Assembly (NCBI GenBank): GCA_000196815.1
Contig: FP929003.1
Location: 3,805,501-3,869,500 of the forward strand
DNA length: 64,000 nucleotides
DNA from: Nitrospira defluvii
Lineage (GTDB): Bacteria; Nitrospirota; Nitrospiria; Nitrospirales; Nitrospiraceae
Direction of reading: 5' to 3'
Below the pieces are notes generated by a model. That model searched no databases. It was not told the DNA's origin and was given only the letters and a program-made list of their open reading frames with translations. The position numbers and the translations under genes were made by a program. This document shows, piece by piece, positions 2,565-48,357 of this stretch. The first letter of the stretch is position 1. Every line of letters starts with the position of its first letter.

Positions 2565-2954
2565 TCAGCTCAACCGGTGGAGATGCCGGGACACATCGTG
2601 ATAACGCGCCGGCGTCACAACGTAACAATAGTCGAACAGCCGATCCGCCGCCTCCGGAGCAATACCCTGCTCCCGAGCCTGCAGCATCTCCATGAACCGA
2701 TTCATGCTTCGGTACACCGCTTCGCCATCGTCCTTGCTCAAGTACCCTCGCACGGTCGCCAATTGCGCGACATAGGGGGCAAACCGATCTCCAGCCCCCT
2801 CCTCCTTTGCCTGCTCAGCCAATACCGCCTGCACCATCGCATCGAGCCACTCCTGCTCTCCGGCGCCGGCAACACGAACAACGCCGGGCATGACGAGACT
2901 CGCCAACAACAGGACCGATGCCGCCATCCACTTCGTGACTTGGATGATTCGCAT
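2565..2954 (-). CDS. Small exported protein, unnamed family, paralogue 1
   Basis: The protein has 129 residues. I chose the ATG at 2954 because GAGGAGG precedes it at good spacing and it gives a signal peptide (MRIIQVTKWMAASVLLLASL). The mature part is a helical module shared with the proteins at 5805-6227 and 3038-3472: WLDAM, FAPYV, a MNRFMEML segment, AAD-LFDYCY-VTP and YHDVSRH. One Cys and two His (FDYC, HDVxRH) are conserved in all three copies and could bind a metal or haem. No CXXCH is present. It is the last gene of a seven-gene minus-strand run with four cupredoxin-like proteins. I do not recognise the family. Confidence 0.75.
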   Translation of the reverse strand: MRIIQVTKWMAASVLLLASLVMPGVVRVAGAGEQEWLDAMVQAVLAEQAKEEGAGDRFAPYVAQLATVRGYLSKDDGEAVYRSMNRFMEMLQAREQGIAPEAADRLFDYCYVVTPARYHDVSRHLHRLS

Positions 2955-3037
2955 GATGTCCTCCTCGCGCACACCCGGAATTCCGCGGCTCGTCTCCACT
3001 GCACGATGATCATTCGGAAATCCGGCTCCGGCCAACC

Positions 3038-3472
3038 CTATTCCTCCCAGAAGAATTTCTCCCAGTTCACGGTTTTATCCCACCACTGCTTGTGCCGCTT
3101 GACGTCGTGCAGGGCCGGCGGGGTGACTTCATAACAGAAATCCCACATCGCATCGGCGGCCTTGGCGCTGATATCTCCGTCCCGGCTTTCCAGCATGTCC
3201 ATAAAACGGTTCATCGCCATATACGAACCTTTCCAGTCACCCCGGTCATAGAGGCTTCGCACCAGGGTGACTTGGCCGACATAAGGATCGAACGATCCGG
3301 GCTCGCCCTTGGCAGAAGCGATCCCTTCCTGCACGACGACGAACCCGGTCAATTGCTCCACCCAGCCTTCCGACCCCGCATACATCGCGATCGCCGCCAG
3401 CGGGACGAGCACCGCAAGCAACACGCAGAGGACGACACCCGTCGTCTTCCGTGAGATAGTCATCGGTGTCAT
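3038..3472 (-). CDS. Small exported protein, unnamed family, paralogue 2 (most divergent)
   Basis: The protein has 144 residues and starts at an ATG preceded by AAGGAGGGG. A hydrophobic N-terminal segment (VVLCVLLAVLVPLAAIAM) suggests export or a membrane anchor. It keeps the family pattern of its neighbours: DPYVGQVTLVR, YMAMNRFMDMLESRD, AADAMWDFCYEVTP and LHDVKRH. The C-terminus is extended and aromatic (KQWWDKTVNWEKFFWEE), unlike the other two copies. The Cys and the HDVxRH pair are kept. The divergence suggests a partner role rather than simple redundancy, which is inference. Function unknown. Confidence 0.75.
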   Translation of the reverse strand: MTPMTISRKTTGVVLCVLLAVLVPLAAIAMYAGSEGWVEQLTGFVVVQEGIASAKGEPGSFDPYVGQVTLVRSLYDRGDWKGSYMAMNRFMDMLESRDGDISAKAADAMWDFCYEVTPPALHDVKRHKQWWDKTVNWEKFFWEE

Positions 3473-3582
3473 GACTCCCCTCCTTACTTCTGACGTATCA
3501 GCTGTTTTTCAGATGGCCCTCGTTCCCTGACCATCACCGTCCCCATTGGATTCCCCCCCCAGCAAAATGCGCTCACGATCCT

Positions 3583-4110
3583 CTACTGGACCGTCCGGAT
3601 GGTCCCGCCGTGATGGACCATGCGGATCGTCCCGCCCGTATCAATGTCCCCTCTGTGCAACGGACAGAAAAAACGAAACTCCTCGACGCCTCCTCGTTCA
3701 CGGCTCCCTTCCCATGGCGCAGGACTCACCAGGGTTCTGACGCTGTCCTCAGGGGCCACCGTCACCCGCAACGGCTTGTTGATAACGTCACCCTGCTCAC
3801 CGGCTACTTGTTCGTAGAGCCCCTCGACCATGAAAACGTGTGTACGGACGGTGGGGTTCACGAGAAGGAAGATCAATCCGTCCCTGAGGTCCGTATCCGT
3901 ATGAATAACGACCTCACTGGGAAGCCAGGCTGCCGAGTGGTCCGGTAAATCCTCTACGACAAAACGGAACTCGCTGCCGCGAGCCACCTGGTTGGCCGAC
4001 AACATCCACGTCAGCCCCACGATAAGAACACTCACCAGCGACACACCCCGCCGCCATCGACACTTGGTAACGGCCACGAACCGACTCGCCTGGCTTCTCT
4101 GATTCCTCAT
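3583..4110 (-). CDS. Cupredoxin-like exported protein with Asp at the axial position
   Basis: The protein has 175 residues from the ATG at 4110, which follows GGGGA and gives a basic n-region plus a hydrophobic core (VSLVSVLIVGLTWML). A start at 4176 with GGGAGG upstream is also possible. The beta-rich body resembles a type 1 copper fold: His91 in VRTHVF, then Cys149 and His152 in FFCPLHRGDID. In plastocyanin-like proteins the axial Met follows the Cys by eight residues; here that place is Asp157. The last 17 residues contain a nine-residue repeat (GGTIRMVHH, GGTIRTVQ) from a 27-bp tandem duplication at the gene end. It is 63% similar by eye to its upstream neighbour in the core. Copper binding is inference. 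Confidence 0.7.
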   Translation of the reverse strand: MRNQRSQASRFVAVTKCRWRRGVSLVSVLIVGLTWMLSANQVARGSEFRFVVEDLPDHSAAWLPSEVVIHTDTDLRDGLIFLLVNPTVRTHVFMVEGLYEQVAGEQGDVINKPLRVTVAPEDSVRTLVSPAPWEGSRERGGVEEFRFFCPLHRGDIDTGGTIRMVHHGGTIRTVQ

Positions 4111-4162
4111 CGTGATTCCCCACAAAGACCCCTGCGAACCCTGTCCTCTATCCTGATCGCGG

Positions 4163-4624
4163 TTACGGCAAGACATGAATCGTTCCTCCCAGATGCGCGT
4201 CGCCTTTATGTAAGGGACAAAAAAACGGATAGGCTTCCTCCTCTGAACCGGCTTCCGCCTGTCCCCGTTCAAATTGGGCCGTGCTGATCTGCACCCGGAC
4301 CCTGTCTTCCGATGTCACGTTGACCCGTAACGGCTTTGTGCTGACTTCCCCACCCGCACCCATCACCTCTTCGAACAGTCCATAGGCGGCAAAGGCATGG
4401 GTGCGATCTGTCGGATTCTCCAGCACAAACACCAACCCATCCTGCATCTCCGTGCTGCGATGAATCAGCACTTCCTGCGGCACCCACACCGCCCGCTTCT
4501 CCCCGAGATCTTGCACCACAAAGTGAAACTCCGCCGCCCCAGCGGCGCTCCAGAAACCCAGAGCGCCGGCCAGGACAACGGTAGCCAGACCACTCACACA
4601 ATGGGATGGCTTTATGTGGCTCAT
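4163..4624 (-). CDS. Cupredoxin-like exported protein with His at the axial position
   Basis: The protein has 153 residues and a signal peptide (GLATVVLAGALGFWSAAGA) after the start, with GGAAGGACT upstream. Candidate copper ligands are His76 (DRTHAF) and Cys126/His129 (FFCPLHKGDAH). The residue eight after the Cys, where plastocyanin has Met, is His134. The core EFHFVVQDLGEKRAVWVPQ aligns with EFRFVVEDLPDHSAAWLPS in the next gene, so the two form one pair of paralogues. Family assignment rests on the spaced His and C-x2-H motif and the size; no search was possible. It may carry electrons in the periplasm. Confidence 0.7.
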   Translation of the reverse strand: MSHIKPSHCVSGLATVVLAGALGFWSAAGAAEFHFVVQDLGEKRAVWVPQEVLIHRSTEMQDGLVFVLENPTDRTHAFAAYGLFEEVMGAGGEVSTKPLRVNVTSEDRVRVQISTAQFERGQAEAGSEEEAYPFFCPLHKGDAHLGGTIHVLP

Positions 4625-4660
4625 GTTGCGAGTCCTTCCGGCTACAGGAGCCGGGTGCGA

Positions 4661-5155
4661 TCAGCCACCACCCACCTCACCCCTGGTTTCGATGACATAC
4701 ACCTCCCCTTTGACTTCCGGATGGATGTCGCACCAGAGGGCATGACGCATGCTCTCGGCGATGCCCGTGGCCGGATCGAACTTCGACGGCGCTGTCGCGA
4801 AATGAAGCGTCATCGTCTTCCCCGAATCCACGTGGTACGATTTGAAGTTCTTCCCGACCACCTCAACCCCGCCTTCCACACGAACCGGAATCCCCTTGAA
4901 TAGATTCGACGCGAACCCATGCGTGACGCTGTCCTTATTGTGGATCATGATCGTCGTGTCGTGCGACGGCATCGTCAGCCCCACGGTCTCGTATCCGTGC
5001 TGCCGATCTTTAATCGTGATCTCCACCTTCGACGGCGGTGCCCCCATGCCAGGGGCTTGCGCAAACGCCACCGTCCTGCCCATGCCGAGCAACGTCATGG
5101 CCGCCACGGCAAGGGGAACCGCCAGCACTGTGGTTGTATGTCCTCTGATCTTCAT
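4661..5155 (-). CDS. Cupredoxin-like exported protein without an obvious axial ligand (copy 1)
   Basis: The protein has 164 residues. The ATG at 5155 follows AAGGAGGT and gives a clear signal peptide ending near FAQA. Candidate ligands are His79 (SVTHGF) and Cys142/His145 in RHALWCDIHPEVKGEV. The loop after His145 is about two residues shorter than in plastocyanin and has no Met at the usual place. The block KTMTLHFA before it is typical of cupredoxin strands (a KTxTLxF pattern). It pairs with the 5283-5774 protein, which shares MRH, WCD and HPxVKGE. It sits mid-operon and its redox role is inferred. Confidence 0.7.
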   Translation of the reverse strand: MKIRGHTTTVLAVPLAVAAMTLLGMGRTVAFAQAPGMGAPPSKVEITIKDRQHGYETVGLTMPSHDTTIMIHNKDSVTHGFASNLFKGIPVRVEGGVEVVGKNFKSYHVDSGKTMTLHFATAPSKFDPATGIAESMRHALWCDIHPEVKGEVYVIETRGEVGGG

Positions 5156-5282
5156 GATGGACCTCCTTGGTTGAAACGTGAACGACTCACTGCTTCCTCC
5201 CGGAGAACCTCGCGCCACTGCGCGTCACTTCGCCACGATGATTCCACCCTGCCATCTTCTTTCTCCTGACTCAGTCTTCCGC

Positions 5283-5774
5283 TCACCCGCCTCGGCGTTC
5301 GATGATGAACAGTTCCCCCTTCACGTCCGGATGCATGTCGCACCAGATGACATGCCGCATAAGCGGGCTCATCATCGTGAGCGGGGCTTCCGCCGACCCC
5401 TTAGTAAAATGAAGCGTCATGGTCTTGCCTGGATCGACGCGGAAAGATGGGACATCTTTCCCCGCAACCTGGTACCCGTCGCCTTCCAGCCGAACCGGCG
5501 TGTCCTTAAACAGCGGGGAGTAGAATCCATGCGTCACGCCGTCTTCATTGCGGACCACGATGGCCGTGGGATTCCCCTCCCGGCCATAGCCGGTGACATG
5601 GAACTCCATTTTCTTGATGGTCACCTGGATCGTTACTTCTGGCGCTGCCTGTTCTGTCGTCGCAGCCGCGGCCACACCCGTTACGGCTCCCGACAACAGG
5701 CCCCACGCCAGCGCGATGGACACGAACGTAACGGACATCGACCCCGCCCTTGACTCCTCCCTTCTTGTTCTCAT
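5283..5774 (-). CDS. Cupredoxin-like exported protein without an obvious axial ligand (copy 2)
   Basis: The protein has 163 residues with a twin-Arg-rich but not canonical Tat N-terminus and a hydrophobic core (VTFVSIALAWGLLSG). Candidate ligands are His82 (GVTHGF) and Cys145/His148 (WCDMHPDVKGE). His141 and Met139 in PLMRHVIW are shared with the neighbouring copy. The pattern GKTMTLHF fits a cupredoxin strand before the ligand loop. It is the second gene of the run, 30 bp downstream of a paralogue of the unnamed family. A start at 5738 is possible but has a poorer ribosome site. Copper binding and partner are inference. Confidence 0.7.
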   Translation of the reverse strand: MRTRREESRAGSMSVTFVSIALAWGLLSGAVTGVAAAATTEQAAPEVTIQVTIKKMEFHVTGYGREGNPTAIVVRNEDGVTHGFYSPLFKDTPVRLEGDGYQVAGKDVPSFRVDPGKTMTLHFTKGSAEAPLTMMSPLMRHVIWCDMHPDVKGELFIIERRGG

Positions 5775-5804
5775 GGCGTCCGCCTTTCCCGCGCGTCATG
5801 GCGC

Positions 5805-6227
5805 TCACCCGCCGCTGCCGCCGTACTGATCCTCAATAAACTTATCGATATGCCTGGACACGTCGTGATACTTCGCCGGGGTCACGAGATAGCAGTAATC
5901 GAACAGTCGGTCCGCGACTTCAGGAGACACCCCATAGTCGCGCGCTTCGAGCATGTCCATGAATCGGTTCATCGCCTGATACACCGCATCCCCCTCGCCG
6001 TTGATGATGTGCGCCCGCACCGTCGTCAGATGCGCGACATACGGGGCAAACGTCCCCCAAAACGGCCCTTCATTCGCTTGCTCGGCGAGCACGGCCTCCA
6101 TCATCGCGTCGAGCCAGTCGGGTTCGGGCAAGGGAGCCGGCAGGGGACCGCCCAGCGCCATCACCATCGCCCCCGTCAACACCAGCAGCGCCCCCGCCGT
6201 CCATCGAATATCCTTGATGACCCACAT
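5805..6227 (-). CDS. Small exported protein, unnamed family, paralogue 3
   Basis: The protein has 140 residues if the ATG at 6227 is used (AAGGA nine bases upstream); an ATG three codons earlier is possible. It has a signal peptide or anchor (GALLVLTGAMVMALGG), then the family module: WLDAMMEAVLAEQ, FAPYVAHLTTVR, MNRFMDMLEARD, VADRLFDYCYLVTP and YHDVSRH. It is nearly as long as, and very similar to, the last gene of the run (2565-2954). As the first gene it probably sets expression of the whole set from the promoter at 6266-6294. Function unknown. Confidence 0.75.
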   Translation of the reverse strand: MWVIKDIRWTAGALLVLTGAMVMALGGPLPAPLPEPDWLDAMMEAVLAEQANEGPFWGTFAPYVAHLTTVRAHIINGEGDAVYQAMNRFMDMLEARDYGVSPEVADRLFDYCYLVTPAKYHDVSRHIDKFIEDQYGGSGG

Positions 6228-6265
6228 GGCATCCATTCCTTCGGTTCACACGGCCTCATGTTCTT

Positions 6266-6294
6266 AGCGTACGTCCGGACGCACGTTCCGACAA
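6266..6294 (-). promoter_or_regulatory. Candidate promoter with palindrome for the cupredoxin-like operon
   Basis: On the minus strand, TTGTCG and TACGCT are separated by exactly 17 bases, a fair sigma-70 match, and the predicted start lies about 30 bases before the ATG at 6227. The spacer contains the perfect palindrome CGTCCGGACG (6272-6281), extended imperfectly to 16 bp, which could be a regulator site. The PAS-LuxR gene next door is an obvious candidate regulator, but this is inference. Confidence 0.4.
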
Positions 6295-6437
6295 TGAGAC
6301 GAATGCATCATTGTTGCGATGGGTTGGCCACACCAGACGCGCAGGCAACTCGATGAGGGTTTGAAAGGGATCGTGCGGGAGTTCGTCAACATCGGCTCAT
6401 ACGGCAAGTACCAACAACTGTGGCACAAACCGACACG

Positions 6438-7145
6438 TCACTTCTGAGCAGACACCCCGCCGGGTGGAAACGCAATGGCGAGCGCCTGGAGACGGCTGTG
6501 GGCGCCCAGCTTTTCAAGGATGTGTTGAATGTGGTTGCGCACGGTTACCGGGCTGATGCACAGCAGATCCGCGATGTCCTTGCCGCTCTTGCCGGCGGCG
6601 AGCCCGCGCAGAATTTCCCGTTCCCGTTCGCCAAGGGGAAGGAGAGCGGGAATCTCCGGCACCGTATCCGCCCGTCTCTCCGTCGCCCCTCGCGACAGCG
6701 GCTCTGACGAGGCATAATCCCGACCTCGTGGAGGCGCCACCGCGGCATACAGTTCCTCCGTCAATCCCAGGACCTTCTTGCGCGCCGTGATGTCGCGAAA
6801 GAGGTGTGCGGCCAGAAAGCGATCCGGCTTTCTGGAGGGCACCGGCAACGAACTCACATTGAGCCAGATCACTTTCCCCCCCTTGGTTCTGGTCTGAATG
6901 TCGAAATTGCGCACACCCCTTCCGCAACCCAACCGATGCCCGACCACACAGGAGGGCGAACAGAACGGGTGGCCGGCCAGCGTCTCGCCTCGGATCACCT
7001 CTTGACAGGGACGCCCGATCACGTCCTGAGCGCGAAACCCCAGCAACCGCTCGGCAGCCTTGTTCCACAGGATCACAATGCCCTCTTCATTCATCAGCAT
7101 GGCACCGTCGGCAGTGCGCTGCAGCATGGCCCAGACCTGTTTCAT
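6438..7145 (-). CDS. PAS domain LuxR-type transcriptional regulator
   Basis: The protein has 235 residues from the ATG at 7145 (AGGGAGA upstream). Residues 1-120 form a PAS domain (GAMLMNEEGIVILWNKAAE, ending in RDITARKK). It carries four Cys at 47, 62, 66 and 74 (GRPC, HPFCSPSC, LGCG), a spacing seen in other PAS-LuxR proteins and suited to a metal, haem or redox sensor. Residues 168-228 are a LuxR/NarL helix-turn-helix (LGEREREILRGLAAGKSGKD, VRNHIQHILEKLGAHSR). No receiver domain is present, so it probably senses its signal directly. It lies upstream of and on the same strand as the cupredoxin-like operon, which it may control. Confidence 0.85.
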   Translation of the reverse strand: MKQVWAMLQRTADGAMLMNEEGIVILWNKAAERLLGFRAQDVIGRPCQEVIRGETLAGHPFCSPSCVVGHRLGCGRGVRNFDIQTRTKGGKVIWLNVSSLPVPSRKPDRFLAAHLFRDITARKKVLGLTEELYAAVAPPRGRDYASSEPLSRGATERRADTVPEIPALLPLGEREREILRGLAAGKSGKDIADLLCISPVTVRNHIQHILEKLGAHSRLQALAIAFPPGGVSAQK

Positions 7146-8741: not shown

Positions 8742-9738
8742 CAGCACCCCTCTTGCACCGCTCGACCATGAACTGCCGCGATACTCCGCATTTGAAATAA
8801 GACAGCATAGGTTGTGCCAGGGTCGGGCCTGCCCACTGGCACCAACAGGTCACATCCGGGGATGAAGAACAGCGAGGAAACAAGGGGTTCGGGACCAGTG
8901 ATTGAATCGGACCTCCGGCCGTCTCCTCGCTGCTGCCCTATTCCGCTACAGCGCGCGGAATTGCATCTGTGGCCTGGCCCTCGGCGAAGCGAACAACTTG
9001 ACTGCCGGCGGATCGACGTTACCTATGAATTGAGCGGAGGCTTCGGTGAGAGGAACAGAGACGGATACCGAGGTCGAGTGCAGAGGTGGTGAGCAGGCCC
9101 GCAGGTGCCAAGCGGGAAGCCTGAAACCTCTCCAAGATCTCCACTGTTGCTGACAAGCTCTCTGACCCTGCCTCCGCCCTGCTTTTTTGCCTTTCTCAGG
9201 CTCTCAACCCCTTTAGCCCCTTAGAAGAAAATTAGAAGGCGTGGTGCTCTTGAGATCCGTCATGAATTTTCATGAAATGGCGGGACAGCGCTGAGCAAAG
9301 AATGATTGATAGAGTGGAGGAATCCAGCAGGTGAAATAAAAAAACGGCCCGCCCTTGTGTGGAGCACCGGAGCTGCCGACTGGCCGAGAAGAGTTCGACA
9401 ATCCTTCAGTGGCTGTACTAGCTGATCATCCCGCGCATCGACCTTTACAAGGACCGCATCGACGGCCGTGCCTACTGGCACCGAGAAACAATGCGCGTAC
9501 CGTGAACCCTCTCCCGCAACCGAGGCAGAAGCGATGCCCTACGCACGCTGGCTGCACAAGGGCGAGTCACACTCACACGAGGCTGCCGACCTCAAGAAGC
9601 TGTGCGCCTCCTTTCCCTTATTTATTACGTAAGCACGGAAACGCAGGAATCAACTGTATTGCTTCAGCTCGACCCGGCAGTCAGTGCAAGCTATCGACTA
9701 AAAGCAGAAGTCCACGGCCGACCGCCACCGTAAGGAGG
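8742..9738. other. Long stretch without a convincing gene
   Basis: About 1 kb between the Usp gene and the first cassette-type repeat. Short frames exist but none has a ribosome site with recognisable protein sequence. The part from about 9380 to 9640 translates in pieces that look like decayed coding sequence (for example PRIDLYKDRIDGRAYWH, and MPYARWLHKGESHSHEA near 9535), broken by stops. I read it as the eroded edge of the accessory island. TCATGAATTTTCATGA at 9261-9276 is a near-perfect palindrome. Confidence 0.5.
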
Positions 9739-41552: not shown

Positions 41553-42113
41553 TTACCGGTCGCAATGTTCTCCTTCACAGCCCCCGCTTCCGCCCCCTCG
41601 ATGCCCCATGCCGCCCATCCCTTCGCGCGACCCCCTATGCCCCATCCCTCCAGGAGGCCCCATGCCTCGCCCGTGACCATGGCCTTCAGCGAAGGTGCGT
41701 TCATACTGGATCACGGCCCATATTTCTTCGTCCGTCAGCTGCCCCGCAAATCCGACCATGCTGGTTCCAGGCGACCCGTTCTTAATCACCCAGAAAATTT
41801 CGCCCTCCGTGCGATGGCGCCAAAATCCAGGGTGCTGAAAATTGCGGGGGGATGGATTCAGCTGCGATGCCACAGGGCCATCGCCCGCCCCCTCCGGTCC
41901 ATGACAGTTGGCGCACGTCCCTTTCCCGTGATAGAGGGCCTTGCCCTTTTCGACCACATCAGGCGAATCAGGCAATGGACTCTTGAGCGCACGCGCTTCC
42001 TCAAGGTGCTCGATCGGGACGCGGGGCGGCTGCATGTGTTGGGCACTTGCAGGGCCAACCGTCACCACGGCCGCCGCCACGATCGCCAATGTGACACTCG
42101 GGAGCTTCTGCAT
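41553..42113 (-). CDS. Monohaem cytochrome c with Gly/His/Met-rich tail
   Basis: The protein has 186 residues with a signal peptide (LAIVAAAVVTVGPASAQ). One haem site: GTCANCHGPEGAGDGP, and an axial Met probable in SPGTSMVGFAG. After residue 140 comes a low-complexity tail, GHGHGRGMGPPGGMGHRGS and so on, ending in CEGEHCDR. Such Gly/His/Met runs could bind copper or nickel. The FWVIKNGSPGT and FAGQLTDEEIW strings are shared with the tetrahaem protein at 43715. The start touches the PPK2 stop (1-bp overlap). Confidence 0.88.
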   Translation of the reverse strand: MQKLPSVTLAIVAAAVVTVGPASAQHMQPPRVPIEHLEEARALKSPLPDSPDVVEKGKALYHGKGTCANCHGPEGAGDGPVASQLNPSPRNFQHPGFWRHRTEGEIFWVIKNGSPGTSMVGFAGQLTDEEIWAVIQYERTFAEGHGHGRGMGPPGGMGHRGSREGMGGMGHRGGGSGGCEGEHCDR

Positions 42114-43174
42114 TAGAAATCCAATTCCACCATCTTGCGATGGAACCGAGTGATGACGTTGGGGTCCGGTGTCAGACGGATCTGCGCCTCATCCTTCCCC
42201 TTGTACGCCAGGAGATTAAGCACGTGGCGCAAACTTTCCAGTCGCGCGGCCTGCTTGTCGTTCGCCTTGACGATGATCCAGGGGCTGAAGGTCGTATGGG
42301 TCTTGCTGAACATTTCTTCTTTGTATCGCGTGTACGAATCCCACAGCTCCTGCGCCTTTTCATCGACGGGGCTCAGCTTCCACTGCTTGAGGGGATTCTG
42401 CCGGCGCGCTTCGAATCGACTGGCCTGTTCTTCTTTGGAAATCGAGAACCAGAACTTGATGATCGTCACGCCGTCCTCGTAGAGCATGTGCTCGAATTCC
42501 GTCACCTGCTGCAAGAACCGCTGGTGCTCCTTCTTGCTGCAGAACCCCATCACCGGCTCGACGACTGCGCGGTTGTACCAACTGCGATCGAAAAACACGA
42601 TCTCACCCTTGTTGGGCAGTTGCCGGATATAGCGCTGGAAATACCACTGGCCCCGTTCATCGTCCGTCGGCTTCGGTAAGGCCACGACCCGCATGGCGCG
42701 CGGATTCAAATGCTCGGTAAACCGCCGGATCGTTCCGCCCTTTCCGGCTGCATCCCGTCCTTCGACAAGAATCGCAATACGCTGCCCATCGGCCTGTACC
42801 CAGCGTTGAAGGCGGACCAGCTCGACCTGCAGCTGTTGTAATTCCTGCTCATACAACAACGTCTTCCGCACGTCTTCCAAATCGATATTCTTGCTCTTGA
42901 TCAATTGCAGCAGCCCGCGCCGCGTGTTCACGCGCCGCAGATCGTCTTCGGTCAGGGTTCGACCCACTTCACCGATTAATCCGGCCGTCACCTCCCCGGT
43001 GGCTTGAGCAGGAGCCTGGTACCCGTCTCCCTCCCTCGGCACGGCCGTCGGAATGATCTCCAGGTCATCCGTCTCAAGTCGCCCGTTGCTCTGCACGACC
43101 GAGCCCGTCCCTGCTGCGCCTATGTGATCTTTCCGGCTTTTTACTTTTCCTGCCGGTTGTCCGTCGGCCGCCAT
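42113..43174 (-). CDS. ppk2: Polyphosphate kinase 2
   Basis: The protein has 353 residues. Walker A: VEGRDAAGKGGTIRRF; Walker B: IVFFDRSWYNRAVVEPV; and the lid EEQASRFEARRQNPLKQWKLSP. These are the PPK2 class I motifs, using polyphosphate to make GTP or ATP, or the reverse. An extra N-terminal 80 residues are disordered and not conserved in the family. It follows a DsrE gene by 27 bp. Confidence 0.94.
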   Translation of the reverse strand: MAADGQPAGKVKSRKDHIGAAGTGSVVQSNGRLETDDLEIIPTAVPREGDGYQAPAQATGEVTAGLIGEVGRTLTEDDLRRVNTRRGLLQLIKSKNIDLEDVRKTLLYEQELQQLQVELVRLQRWVQADGQRIAILVEGRDAAGKGGTIRRFTEHLNPRAMRVVALPKPTDDERGQWYFQRYIRQLPNKGEIVFFDRSWYNRAVVEPVMGFCSKKEHQRFLQQVTEFEHMLYEDGVTIIKFWFSISKEEQASRFEARRQNPLKQWKLSPVDEKAQELWDSYTRYKEEMFSKTHTTFSPWIIVKANDKQAARLESLRHVLNLLAYKGKDEAQIRLTPDPNVITRFHRKMVELDF

Positions 43175-43201
43175 GCGAATACCCGTCCCCTTCCGGCTGA
43201 A

Positions 43202-43561
43202 TTAGAACGCCACGGTCCGGTCGCGCTCAGCCACTGCCTTGATGTAATCCGGCATCCCTTTGATGACGGCTCCTGCGACAAGATCACCCTGGCCAATCTG
43301 TCTGGCCACGGCACAGGCCCCGCAGACCCAGATGGGAATGTTGGCGGCCTGGACGGCCGCCAACAGGTCTTTCAGCGGGGTCAAATTCACGCCGACGACG
43401 TGATCCGCCGAGCCCTTACGCGCTGAAGTCACCGCCTCGTTCCACAACCACAACACCACGTCGTGGCCCTGCTCTTTGGCGGTCTTGGCCGCCATGAAGG
43501 GAAGGGTCGCCATGGTCGGATCGTCTGTCCCCCGACTGCCGGAAATGATAAACGTCGCCAT
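43202..43561 (-). CDS. DsrE/F-like small protein
   Basis: The protein has 119 residues with the DsrE fold pattern: MATFIISGSRGTDDPTMATLPFMAAKTAKE, VVLWLWNEAVTSARKG, and IPIWVCGACAVARQIG, with Cys in the loop (VCGAC). In sulfur oxidisers DsrE carries sulfane sulfur on a Cys. Many family members outside those have no proven role. First gene of the ppk2 group. Confidence 0.85.
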   Translation of the reverse strand: MATFIISGSRGTDDPTMATLPFMAAKTAKEQGHDVVLWLWNEAVTSARKGSADHVVGVNLTPLKDLLAAVQAANIPIWVCGACAVARQIGQGDLVAGAVIKGMPDYIKAVAERDRTVAF

Positions 43562-43632
43562 TGATCAGTCTCCCGTGAATCGTCGTTCGTGAAGCGTCTC
43601 TCGTCCGTGACAAAAGGAGCTGACGGCAGATA

Positions 43633-43686
43633 GCGTATGGCCGATGGCAAGGAGACCGTGGGAGATCTCTTGCTCGTGCCATACGC
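43633..43686. repeat. Intergenic hairpin repeat
   Basis: GCGTATGGC (43633-43641) and GCCATACGC (43678-43686) pair, with inner GCAAGGAGA and TCTCTTGC pairing. The motif AGCGTATGG recurs in other gaps (about 28430 and 35870). It lies between the tetrahaem cytochrome and DsrE genes and may end transcription or be a dispersed element. Confidence 0.6.
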
Positions 43687-43714
43687 GTCGGCCATCTGCA
43701 CATACTCATTCAAT

Positions 43715-45127
43715 TCATTTTGCCAGGCTTCTGATATAGGCGATCAATTGCCACACCTGGTCATCAGGCAGTCCGGCGAACGACATCATGCCGGTGCCCG
43801 GCGACCCGTTTTTGATAATCCAGAACAGTTGCCCGTCCGGAAGATCTTTCATCATCGAGCCGCAGGTAAAGTTTCGGGGCGGCGGGATCAGCGCCGCACC
43901 CATGAAGCCCTGTCCGTTGCCCTTCTCCCCGTGACACATCGCACAAGCCACCGGCTGGGCCGTCTGGAGAAACAACGTTTTCCCCGCCTGAACTGTCGCA
44001 TCCGAGTGCGGCAGCGGATTGGTTTTGGACAGGAACTCAGCCGGCGCCTTCGCCGTTTTCCTGGGTTGCGGGCACACGCCGGTCGGGCCCTCTCCGGTTC
44101 CCGCCGCCTGCGCCACTTCTGCTCCGCCCTTGAAGGTCACTTTTAAATAGGCCATCACGTCCGCGACCCCCTGCTGACCGATGGTCAGACCCCAATAGGG
44201 CATGTTCGGCGACTTCCCCATTGCCGCGCCGCCATGGTTGATCACATTGTAGAGATAGTCGGTCGGCACCTTGTCGAAGGGGATGTTGGCATGGATTGCC
44301 GGTTTCGGCTCCAGCCCGGATGCAGCCGGACCGTCGCCCTTACCGGTGAATCCGTGGCACTGAGCGCAATATTCTTTGTACAGCACCTTCCCGCGATCAG
44401 CACTCGCCAGGCCGAACTCAGGCGCCGTCCAAGGTTCGTAATATTTGAAGTCCTTGACCCCTTGCACCATGAGGAACCCGATCACCGCGCGAAGCTGCGG
44501 CTCCGTCGCGTCGGCCAGGAACTCCCCGGTGTGGGTGATAAAATCCTGGGGATTTTGGCCGAAGCGGAAGAGCCAATCCTTGTCGTACCGTTGACCTGCC
44601 GCCACCAGCGAGGCACTCTGGGGTCCGCCGATGAGTTTGCCGTTCTCTTCAATCAGGTGACAGCCGAGACAGGCGTGGGCCTTGTAAGCCATGCCGCCGA
44701 ACGTCGCGTCGAACTTGCTGACCTTCGAGAGATCGAAGGCCCCGACTTTTACCCGCGGGTCCTTGTTGTGCTGCTCGAAATACTCCGCAATACCCTGAGC
44801 TTCATCCTCAGTGACGACCGGGTGCCGCGTCGGCCCTTCAGACAAATCCCAGCGATATCCCTTTGGATACAGCGGGGCCTCTTTCCCCGTCAGGTAGCGA
44901 AGCAACCAGGAGCGCTGATATTTGCTCCCGGCCCAGATCAGATCAGGCGCCTTCAAATTGAAACGCGAATCCGCTTTTCCTTCCAGGCGGTGACACCCGG
45001 CACAGTTGTTCTGAATCATCTCCTTGACGCGAGTCTGATCACTGCCTAACAGCAAGCGAGGGAAGGAGAACAACCCCACCAACATGACCAACGCGCATCC
45101 GATCAGCACCGTCCGTCTTCCACCCAT
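43715..45127 (-). CDS. Tetrahaem cytochrome c with several cytochrome domains
   Basis: The protein has 470 residues from the ATG at 45127 (AAAGGGG upstream) and a signal segment (VLIGCALVMLVGLFSFP). Four haem sites in order: NCAGCHRLEG, ACLGCHLIEE, YCAQCHGFTG and ACAMCHGEKG, each in its own class I domain. The last domain shares FWIIKNGSPGT and FAGLPDDQVWQLI with the 41553 protein. It could pass electrons among periplasmic partners or serve as one subunit of a larger oxidoreductase. No catalytic domain is seen. Confidence 0.9.
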   Translation of the reverse strand: MGGRRTVLIGCALVMLVGLFSFPRLLLGSDQTRVKEMIQNNCAGCHRLEGKADSRFNLKAPDLIWAGSKYQRSWLLRYLTGKEAPLYPKGYRWDLSEGPTRHPVVTEDEAQGIAEYFEQHNKDPRVKVGAFDLSKVSKFDATFGGMAYKAHACLGCHLIEENGKLIGGPQSASLVAAGQRYDKDWLFRFGQNPQDFITHTGEFLADATEPQLRAVIGFLMVQGVKDFKYYEPWTAPEFGLASADRGKVLYKEYCAQCHGFTGKGDGPAASGLEPKPAIHANIPFDKVPTDYLYNVINHGGAAMGKSPNMPYWGLTIGQQGVADVMAYLKVTFKGGAEVAQAAGTGEGPTGVCPQPRKTAKAPAEFLSKTNPLPHSDATVQAGKTLFLQTAQPVACAMCHGEKGNGQGFMGAALIPPPRNFTCGSMMKDLPDGQLFWIIKNGSPGTGMMSFAGLPDDQVWQLIAYIRSLAK

Positions 45128-45164
45128 GAAACACCCCTTTCTTTCGCTCCCACTGCTGTTCCGG

Positions 45165-45800
45165 TCAGCGAGTCGCCAACCAGGCATGAATATCCGCGAT
45201 CTCCTGATGACTCAATACCGCACCCCAGGCCGGCATCGGCCCCCGCCCATGGAGCACCGTTTCCCAAAAGGCACCGTCATTTTTCAAAATCGTATTACGC
45301 GCGAGTTTCGGTCCGGCACCACCGGCCGCTCCTTCACCATGGCAGGCCTGGCAATTGTGCGCGTAGAGCCCCGCGCCTCTCGATGCCACTCCGGTCACCG
45401 GCCCCTCAGACCCCTGACGCGGGCCTCCCGCAGGCGCGATCATGGCCAACTCTTCTTCAATCGACGGCAGATGGTCCGGCGCACCGGGATGATACCGTGC
45501 CGTCACGAATTGCAAGACCGCCGCCGCCTCGTCCTTGGACAGATCCGCTCCCCAATGCATCATCTTTTCAACCGTCACTGTCCATCGGTCCGCCGGCAAT
45601 CGTTGCTGCACGATCAGATCGGTCGTGTGGCAGACGGCGCAACGGGCATGAATCAATGTCAGGGCTTGACGAGCTTGGGCCGGCTGAATCGTTCCACGAT
45701 CATCCTCCTGAGCCGCCGTGATCACGACCCAGCCAAGCAGGGTACAGAGCCATGCAGCGAGCACGAAACCGGAGGTCTTCTTCGCCGTTCTCAGGGTCAT
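45165..45800 (-). CDS. Dihaem cytochrome c, likely partner of the sulfite-oxidase-like enzyme
   Basis: The protein has 211 residues from the ATG at 45800, overlapping the molybdoenzyme stop (ATGA). It has a signal peptide (SGFVLAAWLCTLLGWVVITA). Two haem sites: ARCAVCHTTD and NCQACHGEGA, with the middle part KMMHWGADLSKDEAAAVLQFV. The ATGA overlap implies a linked product, as in SorAB, where the cytochrome takes electrons from the molybdenum subunit. SorB is normally monohaem, so this would be a variant. Confidence 0.88.
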   Translation of the reverse strand: MTLRTAKKTSGFVLAAWLCTLLGWVVITAAQEDDRGTIQPAQARQALTLIHARCAVCHTTDLIVQQRLPADRWTVTVEKMMHWGADLSKDEAAAVLQFVTARYHPGAPDHLPSIEEELAMIAPAGGPRQGSEGPVTGVASRGAGLYAHNCQACHGEGAAGGAGPKLARNTILKNDGAFWETVLHGRGPMPAWGAVLSHQEIADIHAWLATR

Positions 45801-46978
45801 GCCGCCACCGTGACAGACAGGCGATCCCATCCGTTCCATAAAAATCCTCCGGGATTCCAGGGGCTCGTCGCCGGTTGTTCTTGCCCCTGCGCATCGGTGG
45901 CGCGGCAGAGAATCGCAGTGGGCCCTGGCGTGCGGGCGTTCCACACGAACTGCCATTGTCGCCAGGCATAGGGTTGCCCCTCTCCCAATAACCGGGCCTG
46001 CTCCCAGGTCTTTCCGTCGTCGCAGGACACTTCGACCTTCACCACCGGCGCCTCGCCGGCCCAGGCGACACCTTGAATCGTGACCGGCCCGATCCGCACC
46101 GTGTCGCCCTCAGCTGGAGCGGCGATGAGCGACTTGACCGGCATTTGCTCGACCGGGACCATCGCGCTTCCCGGCAACCCGGATGACAGGCGAACGGCCG
46201 TTTCCGGAATGCGATAGGCCTGCTGCATGTAATAGCCGGGCGTTTCATCCACTCGCACTGTAATCTCGGTCAGCCACTTCATGCAGGACTCCGCCATCCA
46301 GCCGGGAGTAATCACCCGCAGCGGCGCGCCATGCAGGAGGGGCAGCGGACGGCCATTCATTTCATAGGCCAGGAGGGTATCGGGATGGAGGGCCTTTGCG
46401 AGGGGGATACTTCGCGTGAACAGCGGCACGGTCGCCAACGCCGGCCGGTCCGCCCCTTGAAACTGTACGTGGACACCCTGCGGTTTCACGCCGGCTTGCT
46501 GCAGCACATCGCGAAGCCTCACGCCGGTCCATTGCGCATTGCCGACCGCCCCGCGCTCCCACTGCACCCCGGGCACTTTGGGACGATGGTGCGCGCGTCC
46601 GTTTCCACTGCATTGCAGGACGGCGGTCAGGGTGACAGCTTCGAGTTGCTGTAAGTCTTTGAGGTTAAGCGTCAGCTCTTCTTTGACCAGCCCTTTGACC
46701 GTCAGTCGCCAGGCGTCCGGCTTCACCGAGTCGGCCGGGGGAGGGCCGAAGTGACTGCGCGTGAAAAAACGCTCATTGGGTGTGAGCCAGGAGGCAAATT
46801 CCCGGACCGGTGTTTCTGCGTCGAACGGCCTGGTCACTCGCACGGTCAAAGGCCCGGTTCCCTGCCCCGCCTCACTCGCCTGCGCGGAGGCGATCGAGGG
46901 AATCCCTGGCCCGACCACCATCCCGATGCCGATTCCTTGCAGGACCGTTCGCAACCATTCACGTCGGAACACTGTCAT
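45797..46978 (-). CDS. Sulfite-oxidase-like molybdopterin enzyme
   Basis: The protein has 393 residues from the ATG at 46978 (GGAGG upstream). Tat-type signal: FRREWLRTVLQG. The Mo-ligand Cys123 is in AVLQCSGNGRAHH; further family strings are LLAYEMNGRPLPLLHGAPLR and GWMAESCMKWL, and a C-terminal dimerisation domain (VRIGPVTIQGVAWAG, WQFVWNARTPG). It is likely periplasmic and may oxidise sulfite or a related substrate, passing electrons to the dihaem cytochrome. YedY-type reductases have a similar fold but lack the dimer domain seen here. Confidence 0.9.
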   Translation of the reverse strand: MTVFRREWLRTVLQGIGIGMVVGPGIPSIASAQASEAGQGTGPLTVRVTRPFDAETPVREFASWLTPNERFFTRSHFGPPPADSVKPDAWRLTVKGLVKEELTLNLKDLQQLEAVTLTAVLQCSGNGRAHHRPKVPGVQWERGAVGNAQWTGVRLRDVLQQAGVKPQGVHVQFQGADRPALATVPLFTRSIPLAKALHPDTLLAYEMNGRPLPLLHGAPLRVITPGWMAESCMKWLTEITVRVDETPGYYMQQAYRIPETAVRLSSGLPGSAMVPVEQMPVKSLIAAPAEGDTVRIGPVTIQGVAWAGEAPVVKVEVSCDDGKTWEQARLLGEGQPYAWRQWQFVWNARTPGPTAILCRATDAQGQEQPATSPWNPGGFLWNGWDRLSVTVAA

Positions 46979-47412
46979 CACTTTTCCTCCGTAAGATCAG
47001 ATCCCGCCGCCGGATGGCCGTGCGGATTCAGCTCGATCGCGATCCCGGCGGGCACGACGATCGATTGATGTACCGTACAACCGTGCGCCACTTTCAGCAG
47101 CCGTTCTCTCAACTCGGGTGTCACGCGATGGGGAAGGCGAATCGCGAGTTGGATCTGCCCGACTCGATGCGGTGCTTCGGCTATCGTCCACTCCGCGTCT
47201 ACTTTCAGTCCCTCACGTGAGATATCGTGTCGCGCGCAGAACTGGCCGACAAAGTACCCCACGCAGCTCGCCACCGAACCGACGAACAGTTCCACCGGAC
47301 TCATACCGGCGTCGGCCCCTCCGTCTTCAACCGGCTGATCCGTCACGATCCGGTGCCGGTCGCTCAGGATGTCGTACCGCGCTCCCCCCTGATACGCCAC
47401 GCTGAGTTTCAT
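46978..47412 (-). CDS. OsmC/Ohr family protein
   Basis: The protein has 144 residues after GGAGGAGGACG. The two redox Cys are in VASCVGYFVG and AHGCTVHQS, the OsmC/YhfA-type spacing. It probably reduces organic peroxides or binds thiol compounds. The stop overlaps the start of the molybdoenzyme (TGATG), so it heads that group. Confidence 0.9.
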   Translation of the reverse strand: MKLSVAYQGGARYDILSDRHRIVTDQPVEDGGADAGMSPVELFVGSVASCVGYFVGQFCARHDISREGLKVDAEWTIAEAPHRVGQIQLAIRLPHRVTPELRERLLKVAHGCTVHQSIVVPAGIAIELNPHGHPAAGSDLTEEK

Positions 47413-47511
47413 TTCGTCCTCCTCCGCTCGCCTCTCGTACGTCGTGTCTCGTTGTTTCTTCCCAAGAGGGAAGAGTCATGAGATACGCGTCACGCAGAGC
47501 GTTTTACGCAT

Positions 47512-48357
47512 TCAATAGGGTGCATCCGCCGGTTTTCCTCCCTTCGGCCAGTCATTGCCTTTGTCGGGAAAATCCGGGCGTGGCTGGGAGTTGATATACG
47601 CCGCGACGTCATAGGCATCCTGATCAGACAGGGCCCATCCTCTGGTTCGAGGCATGTTCGATTTGATGAAGGCAGCGGCCACCGGAATGCGCGCCATCTC
47701 CGCGCCGATGTTGTAAGACTGAGGCCCCCACACAGCGGGAGCCGCCATCGTGCCCTGCCCGTCCGCTCCGTGGCAAAACGCGCAACGGGACGTGAACACC
47801 TTAGCGCCGTTTGTGGTATCCGGCGGCTTGGGCGCTTGAATCCGCGGGATGCCGCGCCAGGCCATCCGGCTTCCCGCCGGAACATCCTTCGAGAGCCATT
47901 CGATATAGTCCACGATGGCCCGGAGCTTGTGGCTGTCCGACGGAATCGGCTTGCCGTTCAAGCTGCGTTCAAAACATTCATTGATGCGGTCCGCCAATGT
48001 CACGACACGCCCGGTCCGCGCACGATATTCGGGATAGGCCCGCGAGAGGCCGACAAAGGAAGACGAATTGGGGTCGAGCCCCGCGTCCAAATGACAATTG
48101 GCGCAAGTGAGTCGATTTCCTACGTAGGGCGCGGCGAATTCCTGCGTATGGACGACGAGCTGATATCCCAACCGGATCTGCTCCCCACGCTGCCCGCCGG
48201 GAATGGAATCGGGCGAGGGATGGCTGAACAGGGCATCCAGCCTGTCGGGCTCGGCTTGACTCATGACAGACTGTGCGCCGCTTCGTGTTTCCTGCGAATC
48301 GACGCACCCTGCCATGAAGGCGACGATCACGATGGCACTGAAGAATATGTGTTTCAT
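47512..48357 (-). CDS. tsdA: TsdA-like dihaem cytochrome c (thiosulfate dehydrogenase family)
   Basis: The protein has 281 residues from the ATG at 48357 and a lipobox-like VAFMAGC. Two haem sites, LTCANCHLDAG and SRCAFCHGADG. The segment RINECFERSLNGKPIPSDS carries the conserved Cys that is an axial haem ligand in TsdA. Family enzymes join two thiosulfates into tetrathionate or run the reverse. Motif agreement is good, but substrate is not proven here. Confidence 0.88.
   Translation of the reverse strand: MKHIFFSAIVIVAFMAGCVDSQETRSGAQSVMSQAEPDRLDALFSHPSPDSIPGGQRGEQIRLGYQLVVHTQEFAAPYVGNRLTCANCHLDAGLDPNSSSFVGLSRAYPEYRARTGRVVTLADRINECFERSLNGKPIPSDSHKLRAIVDYIEWLSKDVPAGSRMAWRGIPRIQAPKPPDTTNGAKVFTSRCAFCHGADGQGTMAAPAVWGPQSYNIGAEMARIPVAAAFIKSNMPRTRGWALSDQDAYDVAAYINSQPRPDFPDKGNDWPKGGKPADAPY

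Follow-up and report, generated by a model that had tools for sequence, protein, structure and literature searches.

Small cupredoxins of several kinds are the nearest described counterparts of a seven-gene operon in Nitrospira defluvii, located in a 64,000-nt stretch of contig FP929003.1 (hereafter the window, meaning the whole stretch; the host genome is a single contig of 4,317,083 bp). The operon encodes two pairs of cupredoxin-type proteins, CA1/CA2 and CB1/CB2, together with three small helical proteins, H1–H3. Cupredoxin_1 proteins (PF13473; e.g., Bacillus anthracis 4hcg) share the fold and the H...C-x2-H ligands with CA, and most CA members match their profile, whereas the CA copies of the window score under its gathering cut-off, carry Val in place of the axial Met and are paired with CB. 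Nitrosocyanin of Nitrosomonas (1iby/1ibz) superposes on the CB model and shares the loop C-x2-H-x4-H-L-x-G-T with CB1; unlike nitrosocyanin, however, CB has His for Glu60, Asp or Ala replaces the last His in CB2 and in the CB of complete ammonia-oxidising (comammox) lineages, and no full-length sequence relationship was found. AcoP of Acidithiobacillus ferrooxidans is likewise a small exported cupredoxin whose fold matches the CB model (Z 10), but it has C-x6-H spacing and a Met ligand, its family-level homology with CB is not established, and no H proteins or PAS-LuxR regulator are known to accompany it. AcoP partners a c-type cytochrome and an oxidase (PMC4059628). Finally, SorAB sulfite dehydrogenase adjoins the same tetrahaem cytochrome beside which CA–CB sit in other lineages, but it is a molybdenum enzyme plus cytochrome rather than a copper protein; a sulfite dehydrogenase has been noted in comammox and nitrite-oxidising Nitrospira (PMC7078480).

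Against this background, the operon probably encodes a hitherto undescribed module that carries electrons in the cell envelope. An earlier note on this DNA, made from the sequence alone, knew of no described system of such make-up; in agreement with it, searching by locus tag, as well as for Nitrospira cupredoxins and nitrosocyanin, turned up nothing describing the operon in the paper library used, which leaves most subscription papers outside its coverage.

Two cupredoxin families and a helical family

The seven short genes occupy 2565–6236 of the minus strand, encode products of 129–175 amino acids and are transcribed in the order H1, CA1, CA2, CB1, CB2, H2, H3, rather than alternating between two families as the earlier note had it. 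Preferred start codons lie at 2954 for H3, at 4110 or 4044 for CB2 and at 5155 for CA2. Many Nitrospira genomes share the gene set and its order, which is thus more than a chance assembly, and a Cys-rich PAS-LuxR gene almost always precedes it. The seven same-strand reading frames of the earlier note stand. A crude scan found a hydrophobic N-terminal segment in all seven products, but the H proteins have no clear cleavage sites and may be anchored in the membrane instead of being released. No internal promoter or strong terminator exceeded shuffled controls within the operon. No Pfam or NCBIfam family scored above cut-off for any of the seven proteins, and searching Protein Data Bank (PDB) sequences with profiles of CA, CB and H gave no relatives.

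Previously read as four cupredoxins of one family, CA and CB do all carry the H...C-x2-H set, but they fall into two families: CA1 and CA2 are 45% identical, CA and CB 19%, and the two profiles match each other (hhalign, probability 95%, E 3e-8). The cupredoxin assignment itself holds for both. PF13473 is matched by 28 of 39 CA members at E <= 0.1 (best 1e-9), and H79, C142 and H145 are invariant in the CA alignment (39/39). The usual axial Met position is occupied by Val in 34 of the 39, by Met in 3 and by Ala in 2, which is still compatible with a type 1 cupredoxin because cupredoxins lacking the axial Met are known. The loop of the CA copies in the window is of amicyanin length.

No Pfam cupredoxin family matches CB, and its assignment as a cupredoxin comes from its predicted fold. 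Structure prediction, proposed in the earlier note as a check, yielded an AlphaFold model (42 aligned sequences; predicted local distance difference test score, pLDDT, 81) that shows the cupredoxin fold. Its best Foldseek matches were two-domain laccases (3e-5), and VIA returned nitrosocyanin (Z 11.4, root-mean-square deviation 2.1 over 94 residues), a Bacillus Cupredoxin_1 protein (11.1), FtrB (11.0) and AcoP (10.0); with the first three tied, fold alone picks no closest relative. Among the 42 aligned sequences, H76 is present in all, C136 and H139 in 41, and the position five residues beyond the second His is occupied by His in 17, by Asp in 15 and by Ala in 7. CB1 keeps the Cys, His and His of the nitrosocyanin ligands Glu60, Cys95, His98 and His103 within a loop whose identity was checked against the 1iby sequence, and its Glu60 equivalent, read by combining two hhalign alignments, is His; CB2 lacks the last His. 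Family-level sequence likeness between CB and nitrosocyanin was not found, hhalign giving a probability of 45% over 25 columns.

A taxonomic scan with one genome per species, which relies on peptide patterns and can miss distant relatives, found CB at 47 loci, all but two labelled Nitrospira or Nitrospirae. Within that scan CB appears confined to Nitrospira(ceae), if the two exceptions are taken as mislabelled. These loci, L120 ('Gaiellales' SURF_19) and L155 ('Nitrosospira' CMX), carry labels of other phyla, and their operon genes group inside Nitrospira in trees; they are thus probably mislabelled or misbinned Nitrospira contigs.

The Cys/His-bearing helical module attributed earlier to three of the proteins was borne out in H1, H2 and H3, which are 34–53% identical pairwise. 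AlphaFold modelled H1 (49 sequences, pLDDT 83) as a small bundle of helices, for which the top PDB match (7nsn residues 1321–1409, Z 8.9) lies within noise for helical bundles. C112, H121 and H126 (C-x8-H-x4-H) are all present in 42 of 49 H sequences and all absent from 7, so they behave as one site; relatives lacking the motif occur mostly in other gene contexts. FIMAH (PF22888) resembles H in its sub-threshold profile match (E <= 0.1 for 16/49 members, the lowest being 9.4e-5) and perhaps in its helical shape, but H is a stand-alone protein carrying the extra C-x8-H-x4-H. Every window and genome score is below the curated gathering cut-off (best window copy 17.9 vs 24.8 bits, none over it genome-wide), and the identification of H as a FIMAH domain was set aside as unproven.

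Several further H contexts were seen. L037, L040, L041 and L042 hold a lone H gene with no adjoining cupredoxin genes, in L041 and L042 beside the usual flanking genes; these are likely operon remnants, and H3 is apparently the member that remains at this site where the cupredoxins were lost. Behind PAS-LuxR, H genes are in some loci interspersed with a gene for a 310-amino-acid membrane protein (L045 7429–8361, L046 5435–6358, L119, L129), whose family matches nothing in Pfam and has a conserved Cys/His-rich C-terminus. Motif-less H paralogues stand in a conserved operon (L049, L053, L054, L055; ~1.084 Mb in the window genome) with Tll0287-like and trypsin-like/FGE-like proteins, some adjoining a two-component system.

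CA–CB pairs and the tetrahaem cytochrome

Two arrangements dominate among relatives: the full operon behind PAS-LuxR in N. defluvii-type genomes, and, in many further members of the family, among them lineages with names known for comammox, a single CA–CB pair that follows a tetrahaem cytochrome c gene. Rather than being scattered, 60 of 73 distinct CA genes have a CB gene within 1 kb. Neither outcome that the earlier note gave as refuting, structures lacking the cupredoxin fold or unlinked genes in relatives, was thus observed for the modelled cupredoxin and these loci. The tetrahaem cytochrome lies near 27 of the 73, and in 14 of 23 immediate-neighbour cases the spacing is 39–47 bp, as inside an operon. 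This CA–CB-bearing cluster also holds a TsdA/SoxA-type cytochrome, OsmC, DsrE and PPK2, with a TsuA/YeeE-type transporter in some genomes, and CA–CB occur in it without H. Two loci, L108 and L043, are hybrids in which TsdA–OsmC–SorAB–cytochrome lies directly against the operon. Midpoint-rooted trees placed the cytochrome-linked CA in one clade (100/96) and the cytochrome-linked CB in another (96/97), on the CA2 and CB2 sides, respectively, which suggests that a CA–CB pair may have moved out of the larger set.

The window contains the corresponding cluster (Table 1). Where the equivalent comammox cluster holds CA–CB, it has an empty slot, a 153-bp gap at 43562–43714. The 41553–42113 product and the C-terminus of the 43715–45109 product show a below-cut-off relation to cytochrome 579, a protein known from Leptospirillum iron oxidation.

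Table 1 Features of the operon, its upstream region and other loci in the window.
Feature	Position	Strand	Description
H1	5805–6236	-	Small helical exported or anchored protein, C-x8-H-x4-H
CA1	5283–5774	-	Cupredoxin_1-type cupredoxin; Val at usual axial Met position; separate clade, 100/100
CA2	4661–5155	-	Cupredoxin_1-type cupredoxin; groups in tree with cytochrome-linked CA of comammox lineages
CB1	4163–4624	-	Second cupredoxin family (predicted fold); nitrosocyanin-like loop C-x2-H-x4-H, His replacing Glu60
CB2	3583–4110	-	CB1 paralogue; Asp at fourth ligand position; start 4110 or 4044
H2	3038–3472	-	Helical protein, C-x8-H-x4-H
H3	2565–2954	-	Helical protein, C-x8-H-x4-H
Operator and promoter	6266–6313	-	Repeat CAATGATGCATTCGTCTCATTG at 6292–6313, 21-nt spacer, -10-like TACGCT at 6266–6271 (counted from the motif)
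GC palindrome CGTGCGTCCGGACGTACG	6268–6285		Presumably that of the earlier note; not conserved in relatives
PAS-LuxR regulator	6438–7145	-	Pfam GerE 2e-17, PAS_9 3.7e-14
6S-like RNA candidate	~9033–9185	+	Adjoins universal stress protein gene; sigma70-like promoter, T-rich end
Cytochrome/sulfur-compound cluster	41553–48357	-	SorAB-like genes present, no CA–CB
TsdA/SoxA-type dihaem c	47512–48357	-	Cytochrome/sulfur-compound cluster
OsmC	46978–47412	-	Same cluster
SorA-like	45797–46978	-	Same cluster
SorB-like dihaem c	45165–45839	-	Same cluster
Tetrahaem c	43715–45109	-	Same cluster
DsrE	43202–43561	-	Same cluster
PPK2	42113–43096	-	Same cluster
Cytochrome c	41553–42113	-	Same cluster

The operator-promoter and the upstream regulator gene

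The PAS-LuxR gene reported upstream by the earlier note is present, and C47, C62, C66 and H114 of its product are invariant in the alignment of 24 relatives (24/24). The reported promoter with a palindrome held only in part: a palindrome, presumably the GC palindrome CGTGCGTCCGGACGTACG, exists, but it is unconserved in relatives and was rejected as the operator, the conserved element being one whose inverted repeat stands just upstream of it. K-mers common to 18–20 of 25 upstream regions (shuffle maximum 8 for 7-mers and 5 for 8-mers) resolve into the 20-bp inverted repeat AATGA-N10-TCATT, a 21-nt gap and TANNNT. Upstream of the operon, the repeat occurs in 23 loci, with the exact 21-nt spacing to TANNNT in 20 of them, and recurs in 5 among 1153 other upstream regions. 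Extra repeats in L123 and L036/L116 were judged to be the same site on the opposite strand; that of L106/L130 looks like another such case.

AATGA-N10-TCATTG has one perfect site in the window genome, the operon's own. A stricter operator-promoter pattern occurs in 17 of 127 genomes of the family, once in each, and the reversed-pattern control gave no hits. Fifteen of the 17 stand directly before H, CA or CB genes; the retrieved sequence includes PAS-LuxR in all of these but one, which is truncated at the end of its contig (14 of 15). (Some genes escaped the first gene caller, e.g., the L036 PAS-LuxR, intact in L180.) If transcription starts 7 nt after the -10 box, the repeat is centred at about -43, close to the -42 expected of a class II LuxR promoter. 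By this geometry, 6266–6313 would be a class II LuxR-type promoter, and its activation by PAS-LuxR is suggested by their pairing in the genomes.

Proposed electron transfer and competing explanations

Exported proteins with all the copper ligands recur against a tetrahaem cytochrome, which speaks for electron transfer, and we put at about 0.5 the probability that the operon encodes a periplasmic module for electron transfer, linked to c-type cytochromes and, in the window genome, under its own activator. CA and CB would be periplasmic type-1-like copper electron carriers that exchange electrons with the tetrahaem c-type cytochrome, itself part of a chain for reduced sulfur compounds or sulfite (TsdA/SoxA-type cytochrome, SorAB, DsrE). 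Lineages including comammox would encode one CA–CB pair within that chain, and N. defluvii-type genomes would carry the pair in duplicate (CA1, CA2, CB1, CB2) in a separate operon with H, a putative docking or metal-binding partner; the adjacent Cys-bearing PAS-LuxR would switch this operon on from the class II promoter. Of the earlier guess at periplasmic copper redox or copper delivery, the redox half is favored by the cytochrome c context in relatives, whereas delivery has little specific support.

Several observations weigh against this assignment. The operon and the cytochrome cluster are 39 kb apart in the window genome, and the operon is absent from several Nitrospira. The sulfur role of the cluster rests on SorA, SorB and SoxA profile matches that are below NCBIfam cut-offs. 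The distribution over distinct cytochrome clusters (CA without SorA 26, SorA without CA 13, neither 7, both 2), which counts in favor of the assignment, is a description rather than a test, because clusters were partly selected for having or lacking CA, in a sample built around CA, CB or the cytochrome, and lineages differ; the seven with neither indicate that cupredoxins are not required there. Val at the axial position is also compatible with copper storage, and copper-ATPase and Cus-type genes adjoin the two hybrid loci only.

The main rival, copper buffering or delivery, is a tentative possibility and clearly the less likely of the two. CA and CB would hold copper, H would pass it to an enzyme such as the bd-like haem-copper oxidase, and PAS-LuxR would sense copper or redox state. 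The replaced axial Met in CA, the H motif kept or lost as a unit, the three invariant Cys of the PAS protein, and the CPC-type P-ATPase with HMA domains in L043 and CusB-like gene in L108 all fit this explanation. However, no copper genes were recognized in the window neighborhood, CA–CB occur without H in cytochrome clusters, and the complete Cys/His/His set with its tetrahaem cytochrome link suits electron transfer better.

Less likely still is an envelope set for stress or stationary phase, which would protect envelope redox enzymes in starvation under a regulator answering redox or nitric oxide stress. In its favor, a universal stress protein gene repeatedly adjoins PAS-LuxR, with a probable 6S-like RNA beside it. 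Fourteen aligned copies of this RNA fold with 38 pairs, nine of them showing compensatory change; the distant copies of L170 (1552–1703) and L172 (~1552–1707) match Rfam 6S below its gathering score, the window copy falls short of E 0.01, and in L170 and L172 the operator-promoter of the cupredoxin operon precedes the RNA instead. Yet this association may be mere local synteny, and the explanation leaves the CA–CB pair within cytochrome clusters unaccounted for.

That CB is the functional counterpart of nitrosocyanin in Nitrospira, acting on nitric oxide or another small ligand, is very improbable: the top VIA match and the shared CB1 loop favor it, as does the reported lack of nitrosocyanin (ncyA) in comammox Nitrospira, where the nitric oxide-oxidising step is reported as unassigned (PMC6478695), but the fold match is tied, Glu60 is replaced, the alignment is short, the fourth position is Asp in the CB of comammox, and CB is present in N. 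defluvii-type nitrite oxidisers too.

If the operon is indeed an electron-transfer module, it bears on how electrons flow in Nitrospira between periplasmic enzymes and the unusual bd-like oxidase, and it ties the operon proteins to a cytochrome/sulfur cluster common to nitrite oxidisers and comammox bacteria. A bolder version, a long shot, is that CB resembles nitrosocyanin but is peculiar to Nitrospira, a copper protein whose site is His3Cys or His2Cys-Asp and which, with CA and the tetrahaem cytochrome and under Cys-sensing PAS-LuxR control, might perform an unassigned step in nitrifier electron flow, such as oxidation of nitric oxide or a sulfur intermediate. The locus offers two cupredoxin families, a helical family of putative partners and a dedicated regulator whose operator is defined, each of which can be tested in cultured strains.

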